From Pseudogemmobacter bohemicus (GTDB taxonomy: Bacteria > Pseudomonadota > Alphaproteobacteria > Rhodobacterales > Rhodobacteraceae), in NCBI RefSeq assembly GCF_003290025.1, contig NZ_QNHG01000006.1:1-50628 (forward strand): a stretch of DNA of 50,628 nt, in the 5' to 3' direction. A program made the position numbers and the translations under genes. The notes under the pieces are model-generated. The model saw only the letters and a program-made list of their open reading frames with translations, did not search any database and was not told the DNA's origin. Every line of letters begins with the position of its first letter. The first letter of the stretch is position 1. Positions 16,103 through 37,199 of the stretch are shown here, piece after piece.

Positions 16103-17371
16103 ATGGGATCGCTTGCCGAGAGCCCGATTGATTACAGCCTTCACCCGCGTGTCAATTCCGACGACCCGGTGCCGGCCCGCCCCCGCCCGGCCGAGGCACC
16201 CTATCTTCTCAAGGATGAGGCCGATGCGATCCGGGTGGCGACAGAGCTTGCGGCGGAGCTTGCGAAAGGGGCCGCTTTGCGCGACCGCGAGGGGCTGTTG
16301 CCGCTGCGCGAGCTGGATCTTTACTCGCAAAGCGGCATCTGGACGCTGATCATCCCGAAGGAATATGGCGGGCCGGGCCTCTCTTACGCGACGCTGGCAA
16401 AGGTGATCGACATTGTCGCCTCGGGCGATCCGGCGGTGGCGCAGATCGCGCAGAACCATATCGCGATCCTCGGGCTGATCGACATTGACGCGACCGGGGC
16501 CGAGAAACGCGAGATCTTTGGCTGGGCACTGCAAGGGCTGCGTTTCGGCAATGCATTTTCGGAATTCGGCGGCCGGAATGTGGGCGATTTCAAGACCCGC
16601 GTTACCTTTGACGGCGATGAGGCGGTGGTCAATGGCGAGAAGTTCTACACGACCGGCGCGCTCTTGTCGCATATCGTGCCGATCGTTTCGGTCGGGGATG
16701 ACGGCGTCTACCTGGTCTTTGCCGACCGTGAGACCCGGGGCCTGACCATCACCAACAACTGGTCAAGTTTTGGCCAGCGCACCACGGCCTCTGGCTCGGT
16801 GAAGATCGAGAATGTGCGGGTACCGAAGGCGCGGGCGGTGAAGCTGCAGGATGTGGCTTCGGTGCCGACGGTGCAGGGGCCGATCTCGCAGATCATCCAG
16901 GCGGCGATTGATGCCGGTATCGCGCGCGCGGCCATCGACGAGACGATCCGTTTCGTGACCACGCAAAGCCGGCCCTGGATCGACAGCGGCAAGGAAAAGG
17001 CGGGTGAAGATCCCTATACGATCCAGGCCGTCGGCGATCTGAAAATCCGCCTCCACGCCGCCGAGGCGCTGCTGGACATCGCCGGCCGCGCCATTGACCG
17101 GGGCCTTGCGGATCCAACCGAAGAGACAGTGTCCGACGCCACCATCAGGACCGCCGAGGCCAAGGTGCTGACCACCCAGGTCGCGATTGACGCGACGAAT
17201 AAACTGTTCGAGCTGGGCGGCACCCGCTCGACACTGGCCGCCCATGCGCTGGACCGGCATTGGAGGAATGCCCGCACCCATACGCTGCATGATCCGGTGC
17301 GCTGGAAATTCTACCATGTCGGCAATTACTACCTGAACGGGGTCAAGCCGCCGCGCCATCCCTGGAACTAA
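16103..17371 (+). CDS. sfnB: SfnB family sulfur-acquisition oxidoreductase
   Basis: A 422-aa acyl-CoA-dehydrogenase-fold flavoprotein. Landmarks are IPKEYGGPGLSYATLAKVI near residue 92, GNAFSEFGGRNVGDF near 150, FGQRTTASGSV near 228, and the strongly conserved end WRNARTHTLHDPVRWK with LNGVKPPRHPWN. SfnB proteins are reduced-flavin-dependent and act in the use of sulfones and sulfonates under sulfate limitation. ATG 16103 has AAAGGA upstream; the in-frame ATG at 16061 has no such site. It is followed directly by a strong terminator, so it is monocistronic. A paralogue lies at 25772 with the same C-terminal signature. Confidence 0.85.
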   Translation: MGSLAESPIDYSLHPRVNSDDPVPARPRPAEAPYLLKDEADAIRVATELAAELAKGAALRDREGLLPLRELDLYSQSGIWTLIIPKEYGGPGLSYATLAKVIDIVASGDPAVAQIAQNHIAILGLIDIDATGAEKREIFGWALQGLRFGNAFSEFGGRNVGDFKTRVTFDGDEAVVNGEKFYTTGALLSHIVPIVSVGDDGVYLVFADRETRGLTITNNWSSFGQRTTASGSVKIENVRVPKARAVKLQDVASVPTVQGPISQIIQAAIDAGIARAAIDETIRFVTTQSRPWIDSGKEKAGEDPYTIQAVGDLKIRLHAAEALLDIAGRAIDRGLADPTEETVSDATIRTAEAKVLTTQVAIDATNKLFELGGTRSTLAAHALDRHWRNARTHTLHDPVRWKFYHVGNYYLNGVKPPRHPWN

Positions 17372-17387
17372 GGCAGGTCTGAAACGC

Positions 17388-17420
17388 AAAACGCCCCGGA
17401 AATCCGGGGCGTTTTCCTTT
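17388..17420 (+). terminator. Rho-independent terminator after sfnB
   Basis: AAAACGCCCCGG (17388-17399) pairs with CCGGGGCGTTTT (17404-17415) around an AAAT loop and is followed by CCTTTTA. The A/T-rich ends on both sides let it serve the convergent minus-strand operon ending at 17434 as well. Confidence 0.9.
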
Positions 17421-17433
17421 TATCGGGCGCGGT

Positions 17434-18861
17434 TCAGGCGGTTACCCTCGCCAGTTTCGACGCCAGTTTCTCGGCCCAGGCGGTCACTTCCGGCACGCCC
17501 ATCAGCTCGCCCACGGCAGCGCGGGCCAGCGGCCCGGCGATCAGCAGGTCGCTCTGCGCGAGGCCGGACGCATCAATCGCCTCGCCTGTCGCGCTGGAAG
17601 CAAGGCCCAGGCCCAGCGGGTCGGCCGTTATCAGCCCCTGGCGCGCCAGATCGGCGTAAAGCGGGTTCAGGGCGGTGACGGCCCCATGTGCCGGGCCGGT
17701 GGCAAGGATCACCCGATCCGCCGCGAACCGGGTCTCGCCGCCCCGACGCAGCCGTACGCTCACGCGCAGCCTTGCGCCGTCCCGTTCCAGCCCGCTGACC
17801 CGCCCGGCCAGCGCCGTCAGCTGGCCCGAGCGTTCCGCCGCCAACAGGCTCGCATGGGTCTGCGGCGCGATGCGGAAACGGTGAATATCCCAAAGCCCGC
17901 GCAGATGGCGCACCAGCCTGCGGCGCTCGATCAGCGGCAGGGCGGCCCATATCTGCGGACCCTGGCTGCGCAGCCGGTCGAAAACCGGGTGCCAGGTCAG
18001 ACCGGCCCCGGCGGCTGCCGCCAGCTCTTCACGGATGCGGCGCAACAGCCCGCGCGCGCTGGTCGCGGGGGCGTGGGTGAAATCCGCCGCCCCCTCTTCC
18101 TGCGCCGGCCCATGCGGCTGCGACCGCCGGCCCGAGCGCGACAAGAGCCGGATCCGCCCGGAATGAGCGCGCCGCATCAGGCTTGCAACGATATCGGCGC
18201 CGGTCAGCCCGGATCCGATGATCAAAAGCGCTTCCTCGCCGTCGATTCCGTTCAGCGCGCCGGCCTGATAGGGGTCGGCGATCAGCGCCTGCGTGCCGGC
18301 AAGACTTTCCAGCCCGCGCGGCAGGCCGGGGCCGGGATGGGTGGCGGCCAGCACCAGATCTCCGGCCACCAGGTCCCGCCCGTCTTCCAGCCGGATCTGC
18401 CAGCCCTGCACAGTCCGGGTCGCCGCCACCGCCCGGCTTTGCAGATGCACGATCCGCCCGGTGTCGAGAAAGGGTTGCAAATGCGCCAGCACATAGGCGC
18501 CAAACACCGCGCGCGGGGTAAAGATCGCCCCGTCGGGTCGCAGCGCATCGGGGTCAAACCCCGGCGCCGCCCCCGAGGCGAGCCAGCGCGCATAGTGATC
18601 GGGCTGCGAGGTGTCCAGCGTCATCCGTGTATGCGGCACATTCAGCCGGTGATCGGGGTCGGGTGTGGAATAGGCCAGACCCCTGCCCGGCTCTGGCCCT
18701 GGGTCGATCAGACTGATGCGCAGACCTTCCTCAGGGCTCAGCCGGGCCAGATGCCAGGCGAGGGCTGATCCGGAAAGCCCCGCCCCGACAATGGCCACAT
18801 GCCGCGCATGGGGGGATTTTCCGCTCCGGGGCGCGGTGGTGATCGGGCGCTGTTCGGTCAT
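17434..18861 (-). CDS. FAD/NAD(P)-binding oxidoreductase
   Basis: A 475-aa protein with an N-terminal Rossmann FAD site, VAIVGAGLSGSALAWHLA (near residue 22), and a second dinucleotide motif LLIIGSGLTGADI near residue 197. FGAYVLAHLQPFL and RVILATGPAH are typical of the NAD_binding_9/HI0933-like group of uncharacterised flavoproteins. ATG 18861 has AAAAGGGG upstream and lies 13 bases after the ssuD stop, so the two are co-transcribed. Beside an FMNH2-dependent monooxygenase it could supply reducing equivalents or process a product, but this family is not the usual SsuE flavin reductase and its substrate is unknown. Confidence 0.75.
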   Translation of the reverse strand: MTEQRPITTAPRSGKSPHARHVAIVGAGLSGSALAWHLARLSPEEGLRISLIDPGPEPGRGLAYSTPDPDHRLNVPHTRMTLDTSQPDHYARWLASGAAPGFDPDALRPDGAIFTPRAVFGAYVLAHLQPFLDTGRIVHLQSRAVAATRTVQGWQIRLEDGRDLVAGDLVLAATHPGPGLPRGLESLAGTQALIADPYQAGALNGIDGEEALLIIGSGLTGADIVASLMRRAHSGRIRLLSRSGRRSQPHGPAQEEGAADFTHAPATSARGLLRRIREELAAAAGAGLTWHPVFDRLRSQGPQIWAALPLIERRRLVRHLRGLWDIHRFRIAPQTHASLLAAERSGQLTALAGRVSGLERDGARLRVSVRLRRGGETRFAADRVILATGPAHGAVTALNPLYADLARQGLITADPLGLGLASSATGEAIDASGLAQSDLLIAGPLARAAVGELMGVPEVTAWAEKLASKLARVTA

Positions 18862-18874
18862 GTCAGACCCCTTT

Positions 18875-20044
18875 TCAGCTGGCCGAGGCCCGGGCGCGGA
18901 TGTCAAAGGCGCCGCCGGTCTGGGCGCTGCGCTCGGTCACGGCGCCCTTGCCGAGAAGCGGGAAGACCAGTTCGGCAAAGCGGATGGATTCCTCCAGATG
19001 CGGATAGCCGGAAAGCACGAATGTATCGACGCCAAGCGCCTGGTATTCGCGCAACCGCGCGACAATCTGCTGCGGGTTCCCGACCAGCGCTGTGCCGGCG
19101 CCGCCCCGGACCAGCCCGACCCCGGCCCAGAGGTTCGGCCCCACCACCAGCCGGTCGCGCCGCCCGCCATGCAGCGCCTGCATCCGCGCCTGACCATGGC
19201 TGTCCATCTTCGCCATATTGGCCTGCGACGCGGTGATATCCTCATCCGAGAGATGCGAGATCAGCCGGTCGGCATCGGCCCAGGCTTCTTCGTCTGTCTC
19301 GCGCACGATGACATGCAGGCGCACGCCAAAGCGGATCTGACGCCCGTGTTTCGCCGCCCGCGTCCGCACATCGGCTATCTTTTCCGCCACCGCTTCCGGT
19401 GGCTCGCCCCAGGTCAGATAGGCATCGACATGTTTGCCGGCGAGGTCATGCGCCGCCGGCGAAGACCCTCCGAAATACAAAGGCGGATAGGGGCGCTGCA
19501 CGGGAGGGTGGAAATTCCGGGCATTCTCGACGGAAAGATGCTTGCCCTTGAACGAGACCGGCGCATCGGTGGCGAGGATGCGGCGCCAGACGGTCAGGAA
19601 TTCATCCGCCGCCTCGTAACGCTCATCATGTTTCAGGAAGACCCCATCCGCCGCCAGTTCGGTCGCATCGCCGCCGGGCACCACATTCAGCAAGAGCCGG
19701 CCGCCAAGCGCCTGGTCCAGCGTTGCCGCCTGGCGCGCCGAGGCCGTCGGCCCCATGATCGAGGTGCGCAAAGCCACCAGCAATTTGATCTGCCTTGTCT
19801 CGGCGATCAGGCTCGCGGCGGTCACCCAGGGGTCCTGGCAGCTGGCCCCGGTCGGGATCAGCAGCCCGTCATAGCCCAGCCGGTCGGCGGTGATTGCGAT
19901 CTGGCGGATATAGCTGTTCTCGGGCGGGCGGCTGAAATCCGAGGTGCCCAGATAGCGCGTATCGCCCGAGGTCGGCAGGAACCAGAAGATCTCGGGGCTG
20001 GCTTGCGGATTGCCCTGACCGGGCTCTGGGTTCGGATGGCTCAT
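18875..20044 (-). CDS. ssuD: LLM-class alkanesulfonate monooxygenase (SsuD-like), copy 1
   Basis: A 389-aa bacterial luciferase-like monooxygenase that would use FMNH2 and oxygen to cleave the C-S bond of alkanesulfonates to an aldehyde and sulfite. SsuD hallmarks are FWFLPTSGD at the start, [64 protein letters not shown] and [20 protein letters not shown] 20044 has GGAA upstream. It heads a two-gene minus-strand operon with the FAD protein and is divergent from the DszA-like gene, sharing a ~500-base control region with it. Confidence 0.88.
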
Positions 20045-20540
20045 CTGGAATTCCTGAGGGGCAGTGTTTTCATCTTGAGGGGCGGCACACCCGCCTGTGT
20101 CCTGCGCTGATTTATAGGGCGCGCCCTGCCCCGGCGGCCATTCCAAAACCCATTTGCCCGCAGAAGTCCGCTGCTTCCTGGCCCCCTTGTGGGAGAATAC
20201 CAATCTCCCGGCGGGGAATGACCTTCCCCCCGGTGCTGCGGCCGCAGCCGGCGCCGGCGGGTGCGGTGCCTGAGTCTTCCCCGCCCGGGAATGTGCGAAA
20301 GTCACAGAAAATGCACGGAAAATTCGGATGCGGCGCCTCTTTGGCTCCCGCAGTTTCTGCGCTGCACAGAAAATCCGCGCTGCGGGGGCCGGGTTCGCGA
20401 CCGGATCCTTCTCTTTCCGATACGGGCTTTGGAATCGCCTCTGGCCCCCGGCGCGGGATAATCACGGCACAACATGTCGTGTTTAACCGGCGCCCCGGCA
20501 AATCCCGCCCGGGCCACCGACCAGATGAGAGACGCCCGCG
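20045..20540. promoter_or_regulatory. Divergent control region between ssuD and the DszA-like gene
   Basis: No gene is visible in these 496 bases. Two adjacent dyads stand out: GGGAGA-ATACCAA-TCTCCC (20191-20209) and GGGGAA-TGACC-TTCCCC (20213-20229), only three bases apart. Their central position between two divergent sulfur operons is what one would expect of operator or activator sites, though GC-rich repeats of this length also arise by chance. I could not place clear promoter boxes. Confidence 0.45.
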
Positions 20541-21944
20541 ATGACCCGCCAGATCCGCTTCAACGCCTTTGACATGAACTGTGTCGGCCATCAGTCGCCC
20601 GGTCTCTGGGCGCATCCGACCGACCGGTCGGCGAAATACAAGGATCTCGACTATTGGCAGGATCTGGCCCGCACGCTGGAGCGCGGCATTTTCGACGGTA
20701 TCTTCATCGCCGACGTGATCGGCTATTACGATGTTTACAAAGGGAATAATGAGGGCGCCATCCGGAATGGCGCCCAGATTCCGGTCAATGACCCGATCCA
20801 GCTGGCGGCCCCCATCGCGCTGGCGACCGAGCATCTGGGGATCGGTATCACCGCCTCGACCTCATTCGAGCACCCCTATACTTTCGCCCGCCGCATCGCG
20901 ACCGCCGATCATCACACGAAAGGTCGGGTCGGCTGGAATATCGTGACCTCGTACCTGGAGAGCGGCGCGAAGAATATCGGCCAGGGCGGGCTGAAGAAAC
21001 ACGACAACCGCTATGAGGTCGCCTCGGAATATCTTGAGGTGATCTATAAGCTGCTGGAAGGCTCCTGGGAGGAAGGCGCGGTGGTCAAAGACGCCGAAGG
21101 CCGCGTGTTTGCCGATCCGGCAAAAGTCCATGAGATCGGCCATAAGGGCAAATATTTCGAAGTGCCGGGCTATGGGCTGACCGAACCCTCGCCGCAGCGC
21201 ACCCCGCTGATCTACCAGGCCGGGGCCTCGGGGGCGGGCAAGGCCTTCGCGGCCGCCCATGCCGAATGCGTTTTTGTTGGCGCCCCGTCAAAGGCGCTGC
21301 TGAAGGAATATGTCGCCGATATCCGCGCCCGTGCGGCGGCCGAGGGTCGTGATCCGTCAAAGCTCTATATCTACACGCTGATCACCATCATCACCGATGA
21401 GACCGAGGAAAAGGCGCGCGCCAAATTCGAGGATTACAGCAGATATATCTCGTATGAGGGCTCGCTTGTCTTCATGTCGGGCTGGAGCGGCGTTGATTTC
21501 GGCGCCTATCAGCCCGGCGAAGTGATCCGCAAGGTCGAGACAAATGCGATCCATTCGATGCTTGATGCCTTTGGCGGCAAGGACAAGGTCTGGACCGTGG
21601 ACGAACTGGCGAAATTTGGCGGCATCGGCGGCCAGGGGCCGGTTTTTGTCGGATCGCCTGCACAGATCGCCGACACGCTGCAGGACTGGGTCGCGGAGAC
21701 CGATGTGGATGGCTTCAACATCGCTTACGCGGTGACGCCGGGCTCGTTCGAAGATGTTGTGACCCTGGTTGTGCCAGAGCTGCAAAAGCGCGGCGCCTAT
21801 CCGACCGCCTACCAGCCCGGGACCTTGCGCGAAAAGCTTTTCGGCGCAGGCCCCTATCTGCCGGCGAACCACCCCGCCGACCGCTACCGCGATATCGAGG
21901 CGCTCAAACGCGCCGAGGCCGCAGCGAAAAGCGCTGCCGAATGA
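20541..21944 (+). CDS. NtaA/SnaA/DszA-type FMN-dependent monooxygenase
   Basis: A 467-aa luciferase-like monooxygenase of the long NtaA/SnaA/DszA (SfnG-related) group. Signs are FNAFDMNCVGHQSPGLWAHP at the N-terminus, ERGIFDGIFIADVIGYYDVY, GITASTSFEHPYTFARR, KGRVGWNIVTSYL, and YQAGASGAGKAFAAAHAE. These enzymes oxidise sulfones or chelates using FMNH2 from a separate reductase. Its ORF overlaps metN by four bases (ATGA), so it is the first gene of a six-gene operon with metNIQ, ssuD and sfnB. Sulfone oxidation is the favoured role from context. Confidence 0.87.
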   Translation: MTRQIRFNAFDMNCVGHQSPGLWAHPTDRSAKYKDLDYWQDLARTLERGIFDGIFIADVIGYYDVYKGNNEGAIRNGAQIPVNDPIQLAAPIALATEHLGIGITASTSFEHPYTFARRIATADHHTKGRVGWNIVTSYLESGAKNIGQGGLKKHDNRYEVASEYLEVIYKLLEGSWEEGAVVKDAEGRVFADPAKVHEIGHKGKYFEVPGYGLTEPSPQRTPLIYQAGASGAGKAFAAAHAECVFVGAPSKALLKEYVADIRARAAAEGRDPSKLYIYTLITIITDETEEKARAKFEDYSRYISYEGSLVFMSGWSGVDFGAYQPGEVIRKVETNAIHSMLDAFGGKDKVWTVDELAKFGGIGGQGPVFVGSPAQIADTLQDWVAETDVDGFNIAYAVTPGSFEDVVTLVVPELQKRGAYPTAYQPGTLREKLFGAGPYLPANHPADRYRDIEALKRAEAAAKSAAE

Positions 21945-22993
21945 TCCGTCTTGATGCCGTCACCAAGAGCTTTACATCGCGTCAGGGGGCGGCGCCGGCT
22001 TTGCACGGGATTGACCTCTCGGTGGGCGAGGGAGAGATTTTTGGCATTATCGGGGCTTCGGGGGCGGGGAAATCCACCCTGGTGCGGCTGATCAACCTGC
22101 TGGAACGGCCGACATCGGGCGATGTCAGTATCGCCGGCCGGCGGGTGACCGATCTGACCGGCAGAGATCTGCACGCACTGCGCCGCTCGATCGGGATGGT
22201 GTTCCAGCATTTCAACCTGCTCAGCGGGCGGACGGTGGCCCGTAACGTTGCCTATCCGCTGGAACTGGCGGGGCAGTTGACCAAAGCGCAGATCGCGGAA
22301 AAGGTCGCGGCGCTGCTGGCGCGGGTCGGGCTTTCGGATCACGCCGGGAAATATCCCCGCCAGCTTTCGGGCGGCCAGAAACAGCGGGTCGGCATTGCGC
22401 GCGCGCTGGCGAATGACCCGAAAGTGCTGCTTTGCGACGAGGCGACTTCCGCGCTTGATCCGCAGACCACCGGCCAGGTGCTGGATCTCTTGCAAGAGAT
22501 CAACCGCGATCTCGGCGTCACCATCGTGATGATCACCCATGAGATGGAGGTGATCCGCCGCGCCTGCGACCGGGTTGCGGTGCTGGAAAAAGGCCGCGTG
22601 GTCGAGGAAGGCCCGGTCACCAGCGTCTTCCTGCATCCTGCGCATCCGGTCACCCGTGCGCTGGTGCGCGAAGCCGAGGGCGATGCGGCGCTGGTGGCAA
22701 CCGATGCGGCGCCGGGCCTGCATCTGCGCCTGACCTTCACCGGTGCCGGCGCGCATCAGCCGCTTCTGGGCCGCATTGCCCGCGATTTCGGGGTGGATTT
22801 CGCCATTCTCGGCGGCCGGGTCGGGCATATCCGCACCACCCCCTTTGCCCAGTTTTCCATCGCGCTGACGGGGGGCAATGGCAGTGCCGCCATGACTGCT
22901 TTGCGTGCAGCAGGCGTCACCGTCGAAGTGATCGAGGGCGCCGCCCCCACCTTCGCCCCTGCGCGTGTGGAAAGGCAGTTCCATGTGGTCTGA
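21941..22993 (+). CDS. metN: Methionine-type ABC transporter ATPase
   Basis: A 350-aa ATPase with Walker A GASGAGKST, signature QLSGGQKQRVGIARAL, Walker B VLLCDEATSALDP and the H-loop MITHEMEV. The C-terminal ~80 residues (LRLTFTGAGAHQPLLGRIAR onward) form the NIL domain found in MetN, which inhibits transport when substrate is high in the cytoplasm. In this setting the substrate may be a sulfonate, sulfone or methionine derivative rather than methionine. Coupled to both neighbours by overlaps. Confidence 0.9.
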   Translation: MIRLDAVTKSFTSRQGAAPALHGIDLSVGEGEIFGIIGASGAGKSTLVRLINLLERPTSGDVSIAGRRVTDLTGRDLHALRRSIGMVFQHFNLLSGRTVARNVAYPLELAGQLTKAQIAEKVAALLARVGLSDHAGKYPRQLSGGQKQRVGIARALANDPKVLLCDEATSALDPQTTGQVLDLLQEINRDLGVTIVMITHEMEVIRRACDRVAVLEKGRVVEEGPVTSVFLHPAHPVTRALVREAEGDAALVATDAAPGLHLRLTFTGAGAHQPLLGRIARDFGVDFAILGGRVGHIRTTPFAQFSIALTGGNGSAAMTALRAAGVTVEVIEGAAPTFAPARVERQFHVV

Positions 22994-23642
22994 CCGTATC
23001 AACTGGGCCGATATCGGCACCGCGCTGAGCCAGACGCTGACCATGGTGGGGATCTCGCTTTTGCTGACGGTGCTGATCGGGCTGCCGCTTGGGATTTTGC
23101 TTTTCGTCACCGGCAAGGGGCAGCCTTTTGCCCGGCCGCTCGGCTATGGTGCGCTGTCCTTCGTTCTGAACATCATCCGCTCGGTGCCGTTCATCATCCT
23201 GCTGATCGTGCTGATGCCGGTGACGGTGCTGATCACCGGCACGTCGCTGGGGATCAGGGGTGTCATCTTCCCGCTGGTCGTCGGCACCGCGCCCTTCTTC
23301 GCACGCCTCGTTGAAACCGCTTTGCGCGAGGTTGATCGCGGCGTGATCGAGGCGAGCCTGGCGATGGGCGCCTCCCCCATACAGACCATCTTTCGCGCCG
23401 TGCTGCCCGAGGCGCTGCCCGGGCTGATCGCCGCCGTCACCGTCACGGCCATCGTGCTTGTCGATTACACCGCCATGTCGGGTGCCATCGGCGGCGGCGG
23501 GCTTGGCGATCTGGCGATCCGTTACGGCTATCACCGCTTCCAGACCGAGATCATGCTGGTCTGCGTCGTGATCCTCATCTTGCTGGTGCAACTGATCCAG
23601 GCCTCGGGGAACAGCCTCGTGACCCGTTTCACGCGCCGCTGA
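22983..23642 (+). CDS. metI: Methionine-type ABC transporter permease
   Basis: A 219-aa permease with five predicted transmembrane segments and the MetI motifs NIIRSVPFIILLIVLMPV, GTAPFFARLVETAL, VDRGVIEASLAMGAS (the EAA loop that docks on MetN) and AMSGAIGGGGLGDLAI. I use ATG 22983, which overlaps the metN stop by 11 bases and has AAAGGC upstream; the in-frame ATG at 22965 lacks a ribosome site. Confidence 0.9.
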   Translation: MWSDRINWADIGTALSQTLTMVGISLLLTVLIGLPLGILLFVTGKGQPFARPLGYGALSFVLNIIRSVPFIILLIVLMPVTVLITGTSLGIRGVIFPLVVGTAPFFARLVETALREVDRGVIEASLAMGASPIQTIFRAVLPEALPGLIAAVTVTAIVLVDYTAMSGAIGGGGLGDLAIRYGYHRFQTEIMLVCVVILILLVQLIQASGNSLVTRFTRR

Positions 23643-23668
23643 ACCCATTCATCCCAAAGGATAATCCC

Positions 23669-24481
23669 ATGTCGAAACTGAGAACCATCGCCCTTGCCGC
23701 TGCGGCCGCTCTTGGCCTTGGCACGGCCGCGCAGGCCCAGGAAAAGCTGGTGATCGGCGCCACCGCCATTCCCCATGCCGAGATCCTGGAATTCGTGAAA
23801 CCCATCGTGGCGAAGGAGGGCATCGATCTCGATATCCGCGTCTTCACCGATTACATCCAGCCCAATGCGCAGCTGGTCTCGGGCGAGCTCGACGGCAATT
23901 ACTACCAGTATCGCCCCTTCCTGAACGAATGGAACCGCGAGCGCGGCGACAATCTGACCGTCATCGTCCCCGTCCATATCGAGCCCTATGTCGCCTATTC
24001 GACCAAAATCGCCTCGCTGGATGAGCTGAAAGATGGCGCCAAAGTCGCGATCCCGAATGACCCGGTCAATGGCGGGCGCGGGCTTTTACTTTTGCAACAG
24101 CTGGGCCTGATCGAACTGGGTGCGTTCAAAACGCTGACCTCGCCGGAAGACCCGCTGCCGGGGCTGAAGGACATCACCGCCAATCCGAAAAACCTCGATA
24201 TCGTCGAGCTGGAATCGGCGCTCCTGCCGCGTGCGCTGAATGAGGTCGATCTGGGCGCACTGAACGGCAATTACGTCTTTGAGGCCGGGCTCGACATCAA
24301 CAAGGCGCTGTTCATCGACAATGGCCAGGATGGCCATAATGTCTGGAGCGAATATCTCGTGACCCGGCCCGGCGATACCGAGGATCCGCGCATCAAAATC
24401 CTCGCCAAAGCGCTGAATTCCGAAGAAACCCGCCAGTTCATTCTCGACCGCTACAAGGGCCAGATCTTCCCGGCCTTCTGA
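23669..24481 (+). CDS. metQ: MetQ/NlpA-family substrate-binding protein
   Basis: A 270-aa periplasmic binding protein with a Sec signal peptide (cleavage near AQA-QE). No lipobox cysteine is present, unlike classical lipoprotein MetQ, so it should be soluble in the periplasm. NlpA-family features are [62 protein letters not shown] and [11 protein letters not shown]. It delivers substrate to MetNI. Homologues exist for methionine and for other small sulfur compounds; context suggests organosulfur. Confidence 0.88.
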
Positions 24482-27040: not shown

Positions 27041-27117
27041 TTCAGCCGCCCGGGCGCAAGGGGGCGAATTTGTCTCTCACAGCCGGCCGATCGGCGCGCT
27101 TCTTCTCCGGAGGGCCG

Positions 27118-27142: not shown

Positions 27143-27223
27143 TGTTTATGCGATGATCCTGCCAGACCGACCGCTGCCCCGACCATGACCCGGACCGGGG
27201 CGCCGGCCTGAAAGGAAGACATC

Positions 27224-27883
27224 ATGTCCCGCTATGAGCCCTGGCTGCACCCGCTGACCCTGACCGAAAGGCTTGCTGCCGTGCCGCCGGGCAGCCCGAT
27301 CCTGCGCGCGCTGCGCAACCGGCCCGAACTGCTTGAGGCGCTGGAGACCGGCTACCGCGATCTCTTGCGCCATGAGGGCGTGGCGCGGGTCGAGGCCTTC
27401 GCCGTGGCCGCCTTCACCGCCCATCTGCATGGGGAGGAGGTCGTGGCCGGGCATTTCCATGAGCTGCTGGCCTCGGAGGACAATACCCTTGCGGCTCTGA
27501 TCACCGAGGAGGCGGAGAATGCGGCGCTGCCCGGACCCTATGGCATCTGGCCGCCCGGGCCGCTTTCCGCCGAGGATCTCGACGGGCCGGCCTGGCGCGC
27601 CGATCCGCCGCTCCGGCTGCGCCTTGGCGCGCGACTGTCGGCGGGCCTGGAACATGCGCATCTGGTGACGCTGCATCCGCGGGACATCACCGCCGGGGCT
27701 GGCGAGGCGCTGGCCCGGGCCGGCTGGTCACGCGACGAGGTGCTGGCGCTGAACCGGCTGATCGCCTGGATCGGGGCGCTGAGCCCGGTGGTGGCGGGCC
27801 TCAGGGCCTATGGTTTCGCGCGCCATCCGCGCCAGTTCCGCCAGGAGATCCCGGATCGCCGGGCGGGTTTTGCCCATGGCTGA
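27224..27883 (+). CDS. CMD-domain protein (Avi_7170-like)
   Basis: A 219-aa helical protein resembling the carboxymuconolactone decarboxylase/AhpD-like group that accompanies luciferase-like monooxygenases in sulfur operons (the Avi_7170 type). Features are PLTLTERLAAVPPGSP near the start, ARVEAFAVAAFTAHLHGE, and LGARLSAGLEHAHLVTLHPR. I do not see the CxxC redox pair of AhpD. The next gene, a probable partner, overlaps by eight bases. Function in the family is unproved; a peroxide- or flavin-linked protective role is inferred. Confidence 0.6.
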   Translation: MSRYEPWLHPLTLTERLAAVPPGSPILRALRNRPELLEALETGYRDLLRHEGVARVEAFAVAAFTAHLHGEEVVAGHFHELLASEDNTLAALITEEAENAALPGPYGIWPPGPLSAEDLDGPAWRADPPLRLRLGARLSAGLEHAHLVTLHPRDITAGAGEALARAGWSRDEVLALNRLIAWIGALSPVVAGLRAYGFARHPRQFRQEIPDRRAGFAHG

Positions 27884-28487
27884 CCCGCTGCCGACGGGCC
27901 CGGATCCGGAAAGCGACCCGCGACCGGACCGCTTTACCAGCCGCCGCCATGAGTGGCGGCCCTGGAGCCTTCCCCTTGCCGCCATCGCCGCGCCGGTGGC
28001 AGATGCCGATCCCGTCCCTTTTTTGCCCGCGCTGCTGGCCGGCGAAACCGTCCCGGCCCTTGCGGTGGCGGTGGCTTCGCTTGCGCGTCGTCGCGGCGCC
28101 GGGCTTGCCCAGGGCGAGCGCGATCTGGTGGCCACGGCGGTCTCGCGCCGGATCGGCTGTTTCTTCACCGCCGCCGCCCATGCCCGACGCGCGGCAACCG
28201 GGCTGCGGCGCAAACGTGAGGTCGAGGTGCTGCTGGAAGAGGGGCTGCCCTCTCCGCTGACCGGGCGGCATGGCGGTGAAATCGCTGCCGCCTCGGCGCT
28301 GGCGGCGGTGCCGGCCCGGACCAGCCGCCAGGTGTTCTGGGCTCTGGAAGAGGAAAAGCTGGATGATCAGGAGATCACCGATCTGATCCTGGTGGCCGGT
28401 TTTGCGGCCTGGAATGCGCGGCTCGCTTTGGCGGCGGGGCAAAGCCGGCCGAGCCCTCTGTCGGGCCAGGGCGGGGTGGCGCCATGA
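27876..28487 (+). CDS. Alkylhydroperoxidase-domain protein (Avi_7169-like)
   Basis: A 203-aa protein with an AhpD-like helical layout, beginning MADPLPTGPD. FTSRRHEWRPWSLPLAA near the N-terminus and the helical second half (EKLDDQEITDLILVAGFAAW) recall the partner protein of the Avi_7170 type. No CxxC is seen; there is one Cys near residue 90 (GCFFTAAAHARRA). I use ATG 27876, inside the end of the previous gene, because the longer frame has no homology. It overlaps the next gene by four bases (ATGA). Confidence 0.55.
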   Translation: MADPLPTGPDPESDPRPDRFTSRRHEWRPWSLPLAAIAAPVADADPVPFLPALLAGETVPALAVAVASLARRRGAGLAQGERDLVATAVSRRIGCFFTAAAHARRAATGLRRKREVEVLLEEGLPSPLTGRHGGEIAAASALAAVPARTSRQVFWALEEEKLDDQEITDLILVAGFAAWNARLALAAGQSRPSPLSGQGGVAP

Positions 28488-29203
28488 CACGGCCTGTAAC
28501 ACGACCCATGACACCATCCATGACCGGGCCCTGGCATCTGAACGCGCCCTCTGACCACGCCACCGCCGATGCGGTGCAGCTTTTGCTGCGCCGGCGCGGC
28601 TTGCCGGTCGAACGCGGCAGCGCCGGCCCGCTTTCGGTGCTGGTGCCGCCCGGACAGCTGCCGGTCGCGTTGCAGGATGGCGCCGCTCTGACCCACGCTG
28701 TGCCGGGAAACGGGGCAGAGAACCTTGCCGCCTTCACCGCCGCCATTGCCGCGCTGGACCATCTTTCGGTGCTGGATCCGTCCGCCTTCCCGGCCCGGCT
28801 TGACCTGACGATCTACGCGCTTCGTCAGCATCTGCGCCCGCTGGAGGCGCTGGCCGCGCCGGACTGCCCCGAAAGCGATGCCAGCCTGATCATGGCGCCG
28901 CTTTTATGGCGGATCGCGCTGCTCGACCGCCATTTCGCGCTGTTTCTGCTGTCGGGTCTGCCAGGCCTCGCCGCGTTGCAAGAGGCCCAGGCCGGGCTGC
29001 CACAGATCGCCAGCCTGCTGCATCCGGGCGCCGCGCTGCATTTCCTGCACCATGTCGGGCGCCATACCGGGCGCAAACCATCCGGGTCTCCGGAGACCGA
29101 CTGGTCGCGCGCGCTTGGCCCCGAGGGGCGGGAGAAATCCCTTTTCCCGCGCGGGCAAAGAAGAAAAGATCCTTCCATTGGCAGCGGGGACCACATTCGA
29201 TAG
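28484..29203 (+). CDS. Uncharacterised protein, possibly GST-like
   Basis: A 239-aa protein translationally coupled to the two CMD-type genes. The first 60 residues after MTGPWHLNAPSDHATA read like a degenerate thioredoxin/GST N-terminal fold (VQLLLRRRGLPVERG, VPPGQLPVALQDGAALTHAV), and residues 85-190 like a GST C-terminal helical domain (PLLWRIALLDRHFALFLL, LPGLAAL). No cysteine or glutathione-site signature can be named. The last ~40 residues are basic and low-complexity. A role in thiol-dependent handling of organosulfur is a guess; I place it as hypothetical. Confidence 0.45.
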   Translation: MTRPVTRPMTPSMTGPWHLNAPSDHATADAVQLLLRRRGLPVERGSAGPLSVLVPPGQLPVALQDGAALTHAVPGNGAENLAAFTAAIAALDHLSVLDPSAFPARLDLTIYALRQHLRPLEALAAPDCPESDASLIMAPLLWRIALLDRHFALFLLSGLPGLAALQEAQAGLPQIASLLHPGAALHFLHHVGRHTGRKPSGSPETDWSRALGPEGREKSLFPRGQRRKDPSIGSGDHIR

Positions 29204-29245
29204 CCATCCGTCGCAGCGCGCCTCTTGCCAGTGACGGAGAGTCCG

Positions 29246-30172
29246 ATGGACGGAACCCCGGGTGACAGTATTGAAAACGAGGACGCGGCGCTGATCGCCG
29301 GCCTGACCGAAAGGCTGCGCTTGTTGCGCATCGTCTCGCAGCAGCGGCGCTATCATGGGCGGCCGGTGCCGCTCCTGCCCGCGAAACGTGCCATCACCGA
29401 TCTGCTGCATGACATCGTGGCCGCGCTTTATCCGCGCCATTTCGGGCCGCAGGATCTGACTCCCGGGACCACCGATGCCTTTATCGCGCAGATGCTGGGC
29501 TCGATCCGGCTGCGGCTGGCCGATCTGGTCACGACCGAGCTGATGCTGGCCCCCGAGGCCGAAGCCACCCGCGCCGGGGCCGAAGGCAACGCGATTTCGC
29601 GCGCCTTTCTGGAACGGCTGGTGATTATCCGCGACTTGCATGACACCGATATTCTGGCCGCGTGGCAGGGGGACCCCTCGGCGATGAGCCTGGACGAGGT
29701 GGCCTTTTGCTTTCCCGGTGTCGCCGCCATCCTGCATCACCGCATCGCGCACGAGCTTTACCGCGCCGGCATCGGCATGATCGCCCGCATCATGGCGGAA
29801 CAGTCGCATTCGGTGACCGGCATCGACATCCATCCCGGCGCAAGGATCGGGCCGGCCTTCTTCATTGATCACGGCACCGGAGTGGTGATCGGCGAGACTG
29901 CGGTGATCGGGCGCAATGTGCGGCTTTATCAGCAGGTGACGCTGGGCGCCCGGAGTTTTCAGGATGATGGCAGCGGCACCCTGGTCAAGGGCCAGCCGCG
30001 CCATCCGCAGGTCGGGGATGATGTGGTGATCTATGCCGGAGCGACCATTCTCGGGCGGATCACGGTGGGCCAGGGGGCGGTGATTGGCGGTGGGGTATGG
30101 CTTTTGGAAGACGTGGCGCCGGGCGCCATGGTCGCCCAGGCCCGCCCGATGCTGAGGGTCGCTCCGGGCTGA
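29246..30172 (+). CDS. Serine O-acetyltransferase (EpsC/SrpH-like), copy 1
   Basis: A 308-aa serine acetyltransferase of the long EpsC/SrpH group. A helical N-terminal part (to residue ~175) is followed by a left-handed beta-helix of hexapeptide repeats: TGIDIHPGARIGPAFFIDHG, VVIGETAVIGRNV, VTLGA, VVIYAGATILGRITVGQGAV. The DIHPG and IDHGTG histidines are the catalytic and substrate-binding ones. It makes O-acetylserine, the acceptor for sulfide in cysteine synthesis. ATG 29246 has GGAG six bases upstream. The C-terminus is short (VAPG), without the cysteine-synthase-binding isoleucine tail. Confidence 0.88.
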   Translation: MDGTPGDSIENEDAALIAGLTERLRLLRIVSQQRRYHGRPVPLLPAKRAITDLLHDIVAALYPRHFGPQDLTPGTTDAFIAQMLGSIRLRLADLVTTELMLAPEAEATRAGAEGNAISRAFLERLVIIRDLHDTDILAAWQGDPSAMSLDEVAFCFPGVAAILHHRIAHELYRAGIGMIARIMAEQSHSVTGIDIHPGARIGPAFFIDHGTGVVIGETAVIGRNVRLYQQVTLGARSFQDDGSGTLVKGQPRHPQVGDDVVIYAGATILGRITVGQGAVIGGGVWLLEDVAPGAMVAQARPMLRVAPG

Positions 30173-30201
30173 GGGCCGCAGAGATTCGCGGGCGCAGGGG
30201 C

Positions 30202-30253
30202 GCTTTCGGGACAACAGGGGGCCTCGGCGGCAGATAAGCACTTCCCCGAAAGC
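30202..30253 (+). terminator. Weak stem after the first serine acetyltransferase gene
   Basis: GCTTTCGGG (30202-30210) pairs with CCCGAAAGC (30245-30253) across a 34-base loop, followed 19 bases later by ATTTTTA. It may be a terminator or a leader structure of the rhodanese gene. Confidence 0.4.
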
Positions 30254-30435
30254 CCCCTGGCGAAGAGAATTTTTATCCCTCGCCTCCCCGCCGCAAACGC
30301 CCTGTTCCAAGTTTGCCCCCCGCCGCGAAATCCGGCGGAAAACCTGTTCCCGGCAGGGGTTTTGCGACGCTATCCTGAGCTCATTGCGGATCCGGCCCGG
30401 TTGCCGGCAGCCAGTTGAGACCCTGGAGAGTGACG

Positions 30436-30879
30436 ATGAATCTGCGTGCCGATACCAGCTTTTCCGCTCTTCCCGTGGCAAAGGACGGCTTTGCCGGGGT
30501 GGTCGCGCCGGGCACCGCCTGGGATCTGGTCTCGCGCGGCGAGGCGGTGATGCTGGATGTCCGTACGGTCGAAGAGCGCGCCTATGTCGGGCGGGTGCCT
30601 GCTTCGCTGCATGTCGCCTGGGCGACCGGCACCTCGATGAACCGCAACCCGCACTTCGCCCGCCAGGTGGCGGCGCTGGTGCCGGATAAGGCCACCCGGC
30701 TTTTGCTGATCTGTCGCAGCGGCAAACGCTCGGCCCTCGCGGCAGAGGCGCTGACCAAAGCCGGCTGGGCTCAGGCCTTCAGCGTGGCTGAGGGTTTTGA
30801 GGGCGCGCTTGATGCCGAAGGCCATCGCGGCTGCGCGGATGGCTGGCGTTTTCACGGGCTGCCCTGGCAACAGGACTGA
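30436..30879 (+). CDS. Rhodanese-like sulfurtransferase
   Basis: A 147-aa single-domain rhodanese. The active-site loop is CRSGKRS, with the persulfide-forming Cys93, after VMLDVRTVEERAYVGRVPAS (the CH2A-like motif) and before AEALTKAGWAQAFSVAEGFEG. It would carry sulfane sulfur between donor and acceptor. ATG 30436 has GGAGAG upstream. It lies between two serine acetyltransferase genes and close to the encapsulin, a neighbourhood known for family 2A encapsulin operons; a sulfur-relay role next to the encapsulated desulfurase is inferred. Confidence 0.9.
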   Translation: MNLRADTSFSALPVAKDGFAGVVAPGTAWDLVSRGEAVMLDVRTVEERAYVGRVPASLHVAWATGTSMNRNPHFARQVAALVPDKATRLLLICRSGKRSALAAEALTKAGWAQAFSVAEGFEGALDAEGHRGCADGWRFHGLPWQQD

Positions 30880-30921
30880 CCCCTTCCCCGCCCGCCATCC
30901 CCAGGTTTTACGGAGACAGCA

Positions 30922-31878
30922 ATGCTCATCCCTGCCCGCGACCATAACGGTTTCGCGGATGAAATAGCCGCGACCGTTTCCGGCCTTGCCGAAGCCCGGC
31001 ATGACTGGCGCCTCTCGCAACTGCGGCTGGAAGAGGCCGGTCCGCGTGAGCTGCCCTCGCCCGAACGGGTCGCCGCCATCGTCACCGATCTGCGCGCGGT
31101 GCTGTTCCCGATGCGGCTTGGCCCGGCCGATCTGCGCCAGGAGCATGAGAATGATTTCATCGCCACCACCCTTGCGCGCGCCGCGCAGGATCTGACCCGC
31201 GAGACCAGCCGCGAGCTTGACTGGGCGCGGCGCTATCTGGGGCCAGGTGCCGCTCCCGCCCCCGAAGCGGCGCCGGTGATTGTCGCAGGTTTTATCCAGA
31301 GCCTTGCCGCGATCCGGCGCCTCCTTGATACCGATGTGGTCGCGGCCTTTCGCGCCGATCCGGCGGCGCGGGGCGTTGATGAGGTGCTTTTGTGCTATCC
31401 GGGGCTGCGCGCCCTGATCAATCACCGCCTGGCGCATCGGCTTTTTACCCTGGGCCTGCCGCTGATCGCCCGGCTGATCTCTGAAATGGCGCATGGCGAG
31501 ACCGGCATCGACATTCATCCCGGCGCCCGGATCGGCGAGAGTTTCTTCATTGACCATGGCACCGGCACGGTGATCGGTGCCACTGCCATCATCGGCGACC
31601 GGGTGCAGCTGTTCCAGGGTGTGACACTGGGCGCCAAAAGCTTCCCCACCGATCCGCAGGGCAATGTGGTCAAGGGCCTGCCCCGCCACCCGATCATCGA
31701 GGATGATGTGGTGATCTATTCCGGCGCCACCGTGCTGGGCCGGGTGACCATCGGCCAGGGCTCGGTGCTGGGCGGGAATGTCTGGGTCACCGGCGATGTG
31801 GCGCCCTGGAGCATGATTTCCCAGGCGCGGGCACAATCGCGCGACCAGGTGGAGAATGATCATGCCAAAATCGCCTGA
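30922..31878 (+). CDS. Serine O-acetyltransferase (EpsC/SrpH-like), copy 2
   Basis: A 318-aa paralogue of the enzyme at 29246 with the same plan: helical N-terminal part, then TGIDIHPGARIGESFFIDHG, TVIGATAIIGDRVQLFQGV, VVIYSGATVLGRVTIGQGSV. The N-terminal region to residue ~110 differs strongly, so the two are not recent duplicates. It makes O-acetylserine. A serine acetyltransferase of this type (SrpH) accompanies SrpI encapsulins in cyanobacteria, and this copy is the nearer to the shell gene, 135 bases away. Confidence 0.9.
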   Translation: MLIPARDHNGFADEIAATVSGLAEARHDWRLSQLRLEEAGPRELPSPERVAAIVTDLRAVLFPMRLGPADLRQEHENDFIATTLARAAQDLTRETSRELDWARRYLGPGAAPAPEAAPVIVAGFIQSLAAIRRLLDTDVVAAFRADPAARGVDEVLLCYPGLRALINHRLAHRLFTLGLPLIARLISEMAHGETGIDIHPGARIGESFFIDHGTGTVIGATAIIGDRVQLFQGVTLGAKSFPTDPQGNVVKGLPRHPIIEDDVVIYSGATVLGRVTIGQGSVLGGNVWVTGDVAPWSMISQARAQSRDQVENDHAKIA

Positions 31879-31893
31879 TCCAGTGCCTGAATA

Positions 31894-31939
31894 TAGAACA
31901 AAATACTACAATATTTGATTGATATGGAAATCTGTTCTA
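31894..31939. promoter_or_regulatory. Encapsulin promoter region: shared motif copy B and an inverted repeat
   Basis: The 134-base gap before the shell gene is very AT-rich. GAACAAAATAC (31896-31906) starts a dyad AAATA-N6-TATTT, repeating the motif at 27118. Overlapping it is a 7-bp inverted repeat TAGAACA (31894-31900) / TGTTCTA (31933-31939). These look like operator half-sites over the promoter. The regulator is unknown; a sulfur- or redox-responsive one would fit. Confidence 0.5.
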
Positions 31940-32012
31940 ATCAGAGTGCCGCAAACAGAAGATCCATTCTCACACCCCCCGCTTTCTCCACCCTCCTCAG
32001 CCGGAGTGCCCC

Positions 32013-32942
32013 ATGGCCGACCTGACCCCGCAAACTGCGCTTGGCGACAATGCCGCCCGCCAGCTTGCCAATGCCACCAAGACCGTTCCGATCCTGCCGA
32101 CGATCAGCCCGCGCTGGCTGGTTCACCTGTTGCAATGGCTGCCGGTCGAGGCCGGGATCTACCGGCTGAACACGGTGAAGAACCCGCAGGATGTGCATGT
32201 CGCCTGCACCGCGCGGGAAGACGAATCCGAGCTGCCGCAGACATTCGTGGATTATGACGAAGCCCCGCGCGAATATTTCCTGAACGGCGTTTCCACCATC
32301 GTCGATGTCCATACGCGGATCTCGGATCTCTATTCCAGCCCCTTTGATCAGGTCAAAGAACAGCTGCGCCTGGCCATCGAGACGATCAAGGAGACCCAGG
32401 AAGGCCAGCTGATCAACAACCCGGATTACGGGCTTTTGGCCAATGTCCACCCGGATCAGGTGAATTACCCGCTGACCGGCGCGCCAACGCCGGATGATCT
32501 GGATCTGCTGATCGCGAAGGTCTGGAAAGAGCCCGCCTTTTTCCTGACCCATCCCGATGCCATCGCCGCCTTTGGCCGCGAATGCACCCGTCGCGGTGTG
32601 CCGCCGCCCACGGTCTCGCTGTTCGGCTCGCAATTCCTGACCTGGCGCGGCATTCCGATCATCCCCTCGGACAAGGTGCCGGTGGTCGATGGCAAGACAA
32701 AGATCCTGCTGATCCGCGTCGGCGATAAACGCCAGGGCGTTGTCGGCCTCTACCAGCCCGGGCTGGCGGGCGAGCAGGCGCCGGGGCTTTCGGTCCGCTT
32801 CATGGGGATCAACCGCTCGGCCATCGCCTCTTACCTGATCAGCCTTTACTGCTCGCTGGTCGTGCAATCGCCGGATGCCCTGGCCGTGCTGGATGATGTG
32901 GAGATCGGCAAGTTCCATGACTATCCCGACACCTACAAGTAA
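32013..32942 (+). CDS. srpI: Family 2A encapsulin nanocompartment shell protein (SrpI-like)
   Basis: A 309-aa HK97-fold shell protein. It matches SrpI-type family 2A encapsulins along its whole length: NAARQLANATKTVP at the extended N-terminal arm, ISPRWLVHLLQWLPVEAGIY, VDYDEAPREYFLNGVSTIVD, THPDAIAAFGRECTRRGVPP, VGLYQPGLAGEQAPGLSVRF and SYLISLYCSLVVQSPDALAV. Such proteins self-assemble into icosahedral shells that package a cysteine desulfurase. The desulfurase gene follows with a 26-base overlap, making the cargo assignment very likely. The ribosome site is AGCCGGAGTGCCCC before ATG. Confidence 0.95.
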   Translation: MADLTPQTALGDNAARQLANATKTVPILPTISPRWLVHLLQWLPVEAGIYRLNTVKNPQDVHVACTAREDESELPQTFVDYDEAPREYFLNGVSTIVDVHTRISDLYSSPFDQVKEQLRLAIETIKETQEGQLINNPDYGLLANVHPDQVNYPLTGAPTPDDLDLLIAKVWKEPAFFLTHPDAIAAFGRECTRRGVPPPTVSLFGSQFLTWRGIPIIPSDKVPVVDGKTKILLIRVGDKRQGVVGLYQPGLAGEQAPGLSVRFMGINRSAIASYLISLYCSLVVQSPDALAVLDDVEIGKFHDYPDTYK

Positions 32943-34770
32943 CCCCCTGCCGGTGCCGGATGCTGTGCCCCAGGGTCTGCCCGATGTGGCAGCGCTGACC
33001 AGCCTTGCCGCGCAATTCTTCGCGGCCCTTCCCGGGGCCGCAGGGAACGGGGCGGGTCACTTGCCCTCGAACCCGGTTCCCGCCAATCCGCAACCGGCCG
33101 GGTTCTCGCCCGGGCCGCTGGCGCATGGCCCTGCCTTGCCCGGGGCTTTTGCGCCCGGGGCCAATGTGGCGCCCGCCAACCCGCAGGACGGGGCGGCAGT
33201 GCTGGCTTCCACTCCCTCGCTGGCGCCGAAAGCGGTGGCGGCGAATGGTCTGCCCGATCATGCCGCCATCGTACCCCCCGCGCTGAACGGGCGGTTCGGG
33301 GGGCATTCGCTGGGCGTATCGCAGGTCAGCCCGCGCACAGCGCCAGGAGCCGGGGGCGCATCGCCCTTCTACTTCCTCACGGATACCGCGCCCTATGCGC
33401 CGCAGAGCCCCGCCCCCGATCTGCCGCGCGAGGATCGCGTTACCGCCCGCAGCTTTGGCCTTCCCGGCGCTGATGATCTGAAGGCGCTGCTGGCCGGAGA
33501 CCAGGCGACAAAGGCTCCGGCCAGGGCGGCGACACCACAACCGGCGCGCGGTGCCTTTGACGTCAACGCCGTCCGCCGCGACTTCCCGATCCTGCAAGAA
33601 CGGGTGAATGGCCGCCAGCTGGTCTGGTTCGACAATGCCGCCACTACGCAAAAGCCGCGCCAGGTGATCGAACGCCTCTCGTATTTCTACGAGCACGAGA
33701 ATTCGAATATCCACCGCGCCGCGCACGAACTTGCCGCCCGTGCCACCGATGCCTATGAAAAGGCTCGGGAAACCGTGCGGCGGTTTATCAATGCGCCCTC
33801 GGTGAATGAGATGATCTTCACCCGTGGCACCACGGAATCGATCAACCTGATCGCCAAATCCTGGGGCGCGCGGAACATCGGCGAGGGCGATGAGATCATC
33901 GTCTCAAACCTTGAGCATCACGCCAATATCGTGCCCTGGCAGCAACTGGCAGGGTCGGTCGGCGCGAAAATCAGGGTGATCCCGGTTGATGATGACGGCC
34001 AGGTGATCCTGTCGGAATACCAGCGCCTGCTGGGGCCGAAGGTAAAGCTGGTCGCGGTCACGCAGGTCTCGAACGCGCTCGGCACGGTGGTCCCGGTGAA
34101 AGAGATCGTCGATCTGGCGCATCGGAATGGGTCAAGAGCGCTGGTCGATGGCGCGCAGTCGATCAGCCATATGCGGGTCGATGTGCAGGATATCGGCGCG
34201 GATTTCTTTGTGTTTTCCGGGCATAAGATCTTTGGTCCCACGGGTATCGGCGCGGTCTGGGCAAAGGCCGAGATCCTCGACGACATGCCCCCCTGGCAAG
34301 GTGGCGGCAATATGATCGAGGATGTCACCTTTGAGCGCACCCGCTTTCAGCCCGCACCGAATAAGTTCGAGGCGGGAACCGGCAATATCGCCGATGCGGT
34401 CGGGCTTGGCGCCGCGCTGGAATATGTCGAGGGCTGGGGTATCGGGACGATCGGCCGCTATGAGCATGAGCTGCTCGATTACGCGACCCATCTCCTGCGG
34501 CCGATCAAGGGGGTGCGGCTGGTCGGCACGGCGCGCGACAAAGCCTCGGTGCTCTCCTTCACGCTGGCGGGTTACACCACGCATGAGGTGGGTGTTGCGC
34601 TGAACGAGGAAGGGATCGCGGTCCGCACCGGCCATCATTGCGCGCAACCGATCCTGCGGCGTTTCGGGCTGGAGACCACGGTGCGGCCCTCCCTCGCCTT
34701 CTACAACACGCGCGATGAGGTCGACCGCTTCATCCAGGTCGTGCAGCGCCTGTCCCAGGCGCCGCGCTGA
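32917..34770 (+). CDS. Encapsulated cysteine desulfurase with long disordered cargo-loading leader
   Basis: A 617-aa protein in two parts. Residues 1-212 are Pro/Ala/Gly-rich and low-complexity with short conserved-looking islands (LPDVAALTSLAAQFFAALPG at 21-40, SPFYFLTDTAPY near 149-160, RSFGLPGADDLKALLAG near 178-194); in family 2A systems this leader targets the enzyme to the shell interior. Residues 214-617 are a group II (SufS-like) desulfurase: His335 in NLEHHANIVPW, the PLP lysine Lys437 in FSGHKIFGPTG, and the persulfide Cys575 in TGHHCAQPILRRF. It frees sulfane sulfur from cysteine. ATG 32917 overlaps the shell gene; longer starts are antisense noise. Confidence 0.93.
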   Translation: MTIPTPTSNPLPVPDAVPQGLPDVAALTSLAAQFFAALPGAAGNGAGHLPSNPVPANPQPAGFSPGPLAHGPALPGAFAPGANVAPANPQDGAAVLASTPSLAPKAVAANGLPDHAAIVPPALNGRFGGHSLGVSQVSPRTAPGAGGASPFYFLTDTAPYAPQSPAPDLPREDRVTARSFGLPGADDLKALLAGDQATKAPARAATPQPARGAFDVNAVRRDFPILQERVNGRQLVWFDNAATTQKPRQVIERLSYFYEHENSNIHRAAHELAARATDAYEKARETVRRFINAPSVNEMIFTRGTTESINLIAKSWGARNIGEGDEIIVSNLEHHANIVPWQQLAGSVGAKIRVIPVDDDGQVILSEYQRLLGPKVKLVAVTQVSNALGTVVPVKEIVDLAHRNGSRALVDGAQSISHMRVDVQDIGADFFVFSGHKIFGPTGIGAVWAKAEILDDMPPWQGGGNMIEDVTFERTRFQPAPNKFEAGTGNIADAVGLGAALEYVEGWGIGTIGRYEHELLDYATHLLRPIKGVRLVGTARDKASVLSFTLAGYTTHEVGVALNEEGIAVRTGHHCAQPILRRFGLETTVRPSLAFYNTRDEVDRFIQVVQRLSQAPR

Positions 34771-37194: not shown

Positions 37195-37199
37195 CCGCG

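Follow-up and report, generated by a model that had tools for sequence, protein, structure and literature searches.

A family 2A encapsulin shell gene and its cargo cysteine desulfurase gene lie together with genes for the predicted uptake and cleavage of organosulfur compounds in the region 16103-34770 of a 50,628-nucleotide stretch of Pseudogemmobacter bohemicus DNA (contig NZ_QNHG01000006.1, positions 1 to 50,628; hereafter the window). Our analysis indicates that this region is probably an island for sulfur scavenging that is maintained as a single conserved block, and that the shell is a separate module which has repeatedly come to lie beside organosulfur modules, the likeliest reason being a common role in the response to sulfur starvation. 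A previous sequence-only reading had interpreted the region as one system of uptake, cleavage and storage, in which sulfur released from sulfonates and sulfones is assimilated to cysteine and the surplus is stored in the shell. That interpretation is partly supported by the results described here.

Comparison with related genomes identified a block of 16 genes (17434-34770, from a FAD/NAD(P)-binding protein to the desulfurase) whose order and orientation are common to the window, Pseudogemmobacter hezensis (G292, L022) and Paracoccus sp. IB05 (G293, L023). The identities of the block proteins among the three genomes range from 47% for the GST-like protein to 99% for the shell. As judged from gene families, functions in uptake, flavin-dependent monooxygenation, serine acetylation and sulfur transfer by rhodanese are kept together with the shell and its cargo in all three genomes. 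The nearest flanks of the Paracoccus block are as in the window on both sides, while both flanks differ in P. hezensis, where a comparison at 40% identity detected none of the window's upstream genes over the 20 kb preceding the block. The first of the two SfnB genes (SfnB-1) adjoins the block in the window and in Paracoccus and is located on a separate contig in P. hezensis. The different flanks in P. hezensis argue that the block has its own boundaries. A near-identity search of plasmids returned 192 records, none of which covered 80% of the query, and the 20 matches listed of these 192 corresponded to parts of the organosulfur half or to ABC genes downstream of the desulfurase. An additional observation concerns approximately 12 kb located 3' of the desulfurase (34815-46741), which is present in the window and in Paracoccus but was not found in P. 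hezensis, where the gene at 46741 of the window directly follows the desulfurase.

Gene identities were assigned from NCBIfam and Pfam profile scores against curated cut-offs and from the nearest solved structures in the PDB; genes are on the plus strand except where the minus strand is indicated. The shell gene (32013-32942) scored 508 bits against the family 2A model NF041162 (cut-off 380), matched PF19307 and the SrpI structure 6x8m, and scored 386 bits against the 2B model, below its cut-off of 400. Its product of 309 residues contains a single SrpI-like domain (Pfam, residues 60-299) and lacks the cyclic-nucleotide-binding domain, the feature that separates 2B from 2A shells. The adjoining cargo desulfurase (32917-34770, start codon inferred) scored 881 bits against NF041166 (cut-off 800), carries about 210 residues N-terminal to its SufS-like domain match and shares the stretches GHHCAQP and SGHK with all members of the alignment (7/7 sequences). 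Upstream of the shell lie a rhodanese (30436-30879; PF00581, 44.5 bits), whose stretch CRSGKR we take to be the active-site loop, and a serine O-acetyltransferase (SAT) of the shell-linked type, acetyltransferase 2 (30922-31878; NF041874, 159 bits, cut-off 150). By its model match, its domain make-up and its adjoining desulfurase, acetyltransferase and rhodanese, the shell gene is assigned to family 2A.

This encapsulin part of the region is ordinary. Among 80 related loci, which were the best matches found by a shell search and some of which end early, 77 contain the desulfurase, 74 the rhodanese and 67 a relative of acetyltransferase 2, indicating that these three genes accompany the shell in the majority of loci. 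PMC8346489 likewise names acetyltransferases and rhodaneses as the accessory genes with the highest enrichment in 2A desulfurase operons, and PMC8049743 reports 2A shells adjoining sulfur metabolism genes. Relatives of the other acetyltransferase of the region, SAT1, are scarcer in shell loci than those of acetyltransferase 2. One locus, from Fuscovulum blasticum (L025), has the order shell, desulfurase, CMD-domain protein, AhpD-like protein, O-acetylhomoserine sulfhydrylase, GST-like protein, SAT1-like acetyltransferase and taurine/SsuA-like binding protein. Within the window's order the shell is scarce (2/292 sampled genomes).

The sequence-only reading had proposed a survey of shell-bearing genomes for organosulfur genes within 20 kb of the shell above background, and such an excess was found for both SfnB and SsuD. 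This survey covered 42 shell-bearing genomes, obtained from 43 of the 80 related loci that were picked by hand and were mostly from isolates. SfnB over its cut-off was carried by 26 of the 42 genomes; in 11 of them it was found no more than 20 kb from the shell, as compared to 0.21 expected, while SsuD was located within the same distance in 6 of the 37 SsuD-bearing genomes (0.29 expected). Controls unrelated to sulfur displayed no such proximity at 20 kb: PhnJ was near the shell in 0/23 genomes and catechol 1,2-dioxygenase in 0/22 over cut-off, or 0/28 with weak matches included. At 50 kb PhnJ remained at 0 and catechol dioxygenase reached 1/28, against 0.97 expected. The excess of SfnB and SsuD over background supports an association of organosulfur genes with 2A shells in several lineages. 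The SfnB genes are found at varying distances from the shell, upstream at approximately 5, 6, 9 and 15 kb and downstream at 9 and 13-18 kb, and these differing distances and sides suggest that several arrangements arose apart. In seven genomes of the Paraburkholderia group, an organosulfur monooxygenase lay within about 10 kb of 5/7 shells as compared to 0/60 other 20-kb stretches (Fisher 2e-6), these background stretches having been picked by hand, mostly at regular spacing, rather than drawn at random. Paraburkholderia xenovorans LB400 (G313, L056) carries two 2A shells (C2:1653999 and C3:136145), one with SfnB at 9-10 kb and the other with an SfnB-like gene at 14 kb. A plasmid of Aliarcobacter cibarius (L021, 1-19539) carries SsuD 14 kb from its shell; its 20 kb hold SsuD, sulfate and amino-acid importers, two cysteine synthases, rhodanese, shell, desulfurase and acetyltransferase, with transposase genes interspersed.

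The distribution of organosulfur genes was also mapped onto a tree of the shells. After 17 of the 80 loci with short flanks were dropped, 63 remained, giving 64 rows with the window. The organosulfur label, whose identity thresholds were fixed after inspection of the locus map, requires nine changes on the tree for 16 positive rows out of 64, window included. Positive loci comprise those of the block-bearing Rhodobacterales, together with Paraburkholderia, Burkholderia sp. OK233, Caballeronia, Rhizobacter, Polaromonas and Variovorax.

A broader sample of 397 genomes of the phylum contained a shell over cut-off in 20 and SfnB in 36. Four shell matches of 2B length (G361, G465, G471 and G541) were excluded from the 2A counts, leaving 16 genomes with a shell of 2A length. 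SfnB was present in 6 of these 16 and in 30 of the 381 others (Fisher 0.0015, or 0.006 without the window, uncorrected for taxonomy). With the window set aside, 2 of the 11 genomes that carry SsuD had it 20 kb or less from the shell (0.11 expected), and 4 of the 11 had it 50 kb or less away (0.27 expected). This sample overlaps the set of 42 genomes, as G583 and G526 are identical by coordinates to G312 and G319. A link between SfnB and the shell that holds generally across the phylum was rejected, since 0/15 of the 2A-shell genomes besides the window had SfnB within 20 kb; for this count the best four candidates per genome were scored, and some contigs (e.g. G497, G416, G666 and G684) were too short to offer 20 kb on both sides. 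These results demonstrate that the organosulfur-shell link is real but limited to certain lineages.

Several results weigh against reading the region as a scavenging island joined to an independent shell module. In the phylum sample, the window alone combines SfnB with a 2A shell at a distance of 20 kb or less (1/16), most of the co-occurrence positives are Paraburkholderia and relatives, and the Poisson tails for the counts in both genome sets take no account of kinship. The shells of the best 80 loci are closely related to that of the window, and SfnB alone changes only three times on the shell tree. The three block-bearing genomes count as one lineage because their shells are 99% identical. 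No organosulfur monooxygenase lies within about 10 kb of the shell in 48 of the 63 related full-flank loci. The block itself also appears incomplete as a pathway: a CysK query limited to the block detected no cysteine synthase; no sulfite reductase was among the genes identified there, the rest of the genome having had no search aimed at sulfite reductase or cysteine synthase; and no flavin reductase was among the identified block genes, all five FMN_red matches of the genome being on other contigs. Finally, the upstream word shared among the transcription units, described below, is weak.

A route through the island can be outlined from the gene families involved. Under sulfate shortage, the MetNIQ-like importer would bring in an organic sulfur compound, from which the FMNH2-dependent SsuD, SfnB and DmoA-type enzymes, together with a flavin reductase coded elsewhere, would produce sulfite. 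The sulfite would then be reduced and fixed into cysteine on O-acetylserine supplied by the two acetyltransferases, with the reducing and fixing enzymes coded outside the block. By analogy to published relatives, the encapsulated desulfurase would convert cysteine to alanine and sulfane sulfur, which may be held in or passed through the shell, and the rhodanese may act as a sulfane sulfur carrier. According to PMC8049743, the Synechococcus relative of the shell rises on sulfate starvation, and knock-outs display no growth phenotype on replete medium or under sulfur starvation. The combination of induction by starvation and absence of a growth defect led us to prefer a shared starvation response over surplus storage, and the behavior of this relative fits the former at least as well as the latter.

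More tentatively, it is possible that 2A encapsulins represent a recurring end-point of organosulfur scavenging, with desulfonation genes repeatedly recruited beside the shell (in Rhodobacterales, Paraburkholderia, Caballeronia, Variovorax/Polaromonas and others). The 16 genes of the window would then form a path from imported organosulfur to compartment-held sulfane sulfur, and the shell would buffer the sulfur that scarce organic sources yield in bursts. The dedicated pipeline of the sequence-only reading, in which sulfur from sulfonates and sulfones passes through cysteine to the shell as stored surplus, gains from the conservation of the 16-gene block, and we nevertheless regard it as unlikely. 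A 2024 study is said to have described elemental sulfur storage in Acinetobacter. PMC12407261 also states that encapsulin cysteine desulfurases take part in sulfur storage. On the other hand, the shell core stands without organosulfur monooxygenases in the 48 related loci mentioned above, and the Synechococcus relative is induced by sulfate starvation and not by surplus (PMC8049743). The claim of one system is borne out to the extent that organosulfur genes are associated with 2A shells in several lineages but is too strong as a general statement, given those 48 loci and the organosulfur genes that occur elsewhere without an annotated shell, as in Shinella (L019). We also consider it improbable that a mobile or accessory replicon simply collected independent sulfur modules that have nothing functional in common except their involvement with sulfur: the independent movement of SfnB-1 and of both flanks, the scarcity of the shell in the order and the size of the window's contig (218,700 bases) are in keeping with such gathering, but two other accessory nutrient families do not cluster near shells in this way, and the internal order survives even though some block proteins have diverged to 47-76% identity.

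The shell system itself is known; what is new is its recurrent pairing with organosulfur genes, along with the block of 16 genes. No publication linking encapsulins with organosulfur use was found among the titles and abstract openings listed, in a search that had most subscription papers and all bioRxiv preprints outside its reach. The closest known system is SrpI/CyD of the Synechococcus elongatus plasmid pANL, which shares with the window the shell (71% identical), an N-terminally extended cargo desulfurase, an acetyltransferase and a rhodanese (PMC8049743 and PMC8346489), and the plasmid is described as coding many sulfur-related genes (PMC8049743). It differs in having a cysteine synthase beside the acetyltransferase, which was not found in the window block, whereas the latter includes two SsuD enzymes, SfnB, a DmoA-type enzyme and a MetNIQ-like importer. 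The rhizobial organosulfur cluster of Shinella sp. HZN7 plasmid pShin-03 (L019) resembles the window in the grouping of MetNIQ-like genes with SfnB and flavin monooxygenases but lacks a shell, a cysteine desulfurase and a rhodanese in the annotation of the 35 kb covered, where the plasmid gene tables are incomplete. Relative to the SsuD/MsuD alkanesulfonate monooxygenase systems, both SsuD enzymes of the window exceed the TIGR03565 cut-off, but the importer of the block is MetNIQ-like and no SsuABC-type genes were identified in it. Should these shells function in parallel with organosulfur scavenging, growth on sulfonates, sulfones or sulfides as the sole sulfur source would be the appropriate condition for a test, and the role of 2A encapsulins would become directly testable in a soil bacterium.

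The predicted gene list of the sequence-only reading is correct apart from corrections of strand and label. Its two SfnB-type and two SsuD-type genes, two serine acetyltransferases, rhodanese, CMD/AhpD-like genes and 2A encapsulin with its own cysteine desulfurase were all recovered within 16103-34770. SfnB-1 (16103-17371), an SfnB-family sulfur acquisition oxidoreductase, scored 563 bits against TIGR04022 (cut-off 430.9) and is followed by a terminator-like hairpin (17388-17415, plus strand) of 12 pairs with a T-rich tail, the fold of 17371-17434 having a z of -3.1. SfnB-2 (25769-26986) scored 632 bits against the same cut-off, and its nearest solved kin are DszC (191 bits) and methanesulfinate monooxygenase (166 bits). 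These are the only SfnB genes over cut-off in the whole genome; a further SfnB-like gene at the window edge (8-1237) scored 246 bits, below cut-off. SsuD-1 (24609-25772; 565 bits; PDB 1nqk/1m41/7jv3) and SsuD-2 (18875-20044, minus strand; 588 bits) both match the FMNH2-dependent alkanesulfonate monooxygenase model TIGR03565 (cut-off 518.2). The FAD/NAD(P)-binding gene (17434-18906, minus strand; PF13454, 132 bits) was absent from the earlier list. In four further genomes (L018 at 23636-25108, G352, G680 and G492), FAD/NAD(P)-binding proteins of 31-37% identity are likewise encoded no more than 20 kb from a 2A shell.

The flavin monooxygenase at 20541-21944 had been termed DszA-type, a label that proved too specific. 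Its product belongs to the NtaA/DmoA family (TIGR03860, 530 bits, cut-off 279.7). Among solved structures, its closest relative is dimethyl-sulfide monooxygenase (PDB 6ak1, 517 bits), followed by alkane monooxygenase (476 bits), as compared to 243 bits for a DszA. The importer named as MetNIQ-type does consist of MetN-, MetI- and MetQ-like genes, but all of them score below curated cut-offs: the ATPase (21941-22993) at 343 bits against 499.7 (TIGR02314), the permease (22983-23642, start codon inferred) at 208 against 212 (NF008049) and the binding protein (23669-24481) at 159 against 374, with a second match of 151 bits also below cut-off. We therefore hold its name to MetNIQ-like and assign no substrate. 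Downstream are a CMD-domain protein (27224-27883; TIGR04029, 102 bits, cut-off 100.75) and an AhpD/peroxidase-like protein (27876-28487, start codon inferred; TIGR04030, 81 bits, below the cut-off of 233). The gene called GST-like (28484-29203) is present and conserved, but its label is weak, as the product has no NCBIfam or Pfam match. Of the 50 structure matches listed for a low-confidence model (pLDDT 63), none reaches E<=1e-3 (E 0.026-0.11) and 49 carry GST or GST-like in their titles, which makes a GST fold possible. SAT1 (29246-30172) scored 168 bits against the cysE profile (cut-off 210.65) and 149.7 against EpsC (cut-off 150).

The minus-strand location of SsuD-2 and the FAD/NAD(P)-binding gene indicates that the region is not one operon. 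The strand change, the gaps and the hairpins at 17388 and after SfnB-2 suggest at least five transcription units. The latter hairpin (27004-27035, plus strand) is strong, lacks a T-run and separates the organosulfur genes from the CMD gene (fold of 26985-27060, -47.5 kcal/mol, z -4.4). Scans for sigma-70-type promoters and terminators returned 2 (3.0 expected) and 16 (13.0 expected), respectively. An exact 11-mer, GAACAAAATAC, upstream of both CMD and shell was rejected as a shared site because it is not kept in P. hezensis or Paracoccus, and the longer consensus GCCCCNTGNNGAAGAGAAT was rejected because its one match equals chance expectation. The purine word GAAGAGAAG, allowing one mismatch, is conserved across the three species at NtaA, SfnB-1 and SAT1 and in two of them at the rhodanese, each time upstream of the gene. 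Its sites in the window (15971, 20408-20416 on the minus strand, 29160 and 30262) lie 86-174 bases upstream of four transcription units. The word is found in 3/6 upstream regions across all three species, with none directly upstream of the shell, while 25 shuffles reach 2 and GC-rich words also reach 3. As it was derived from the same sequences and GC-rich words score equally high, we treat it as a lead only, and co-regulation of the shell and organosulfur genes may be said to be hinted at. Upstream of SAT1, the 31 bases at 29156-29186 are identical in the three species even though the two neighbouring proteins are only 47-87% alike; this segment lies within the tail-coding stretch of the GST-like gene and may also be a control site.

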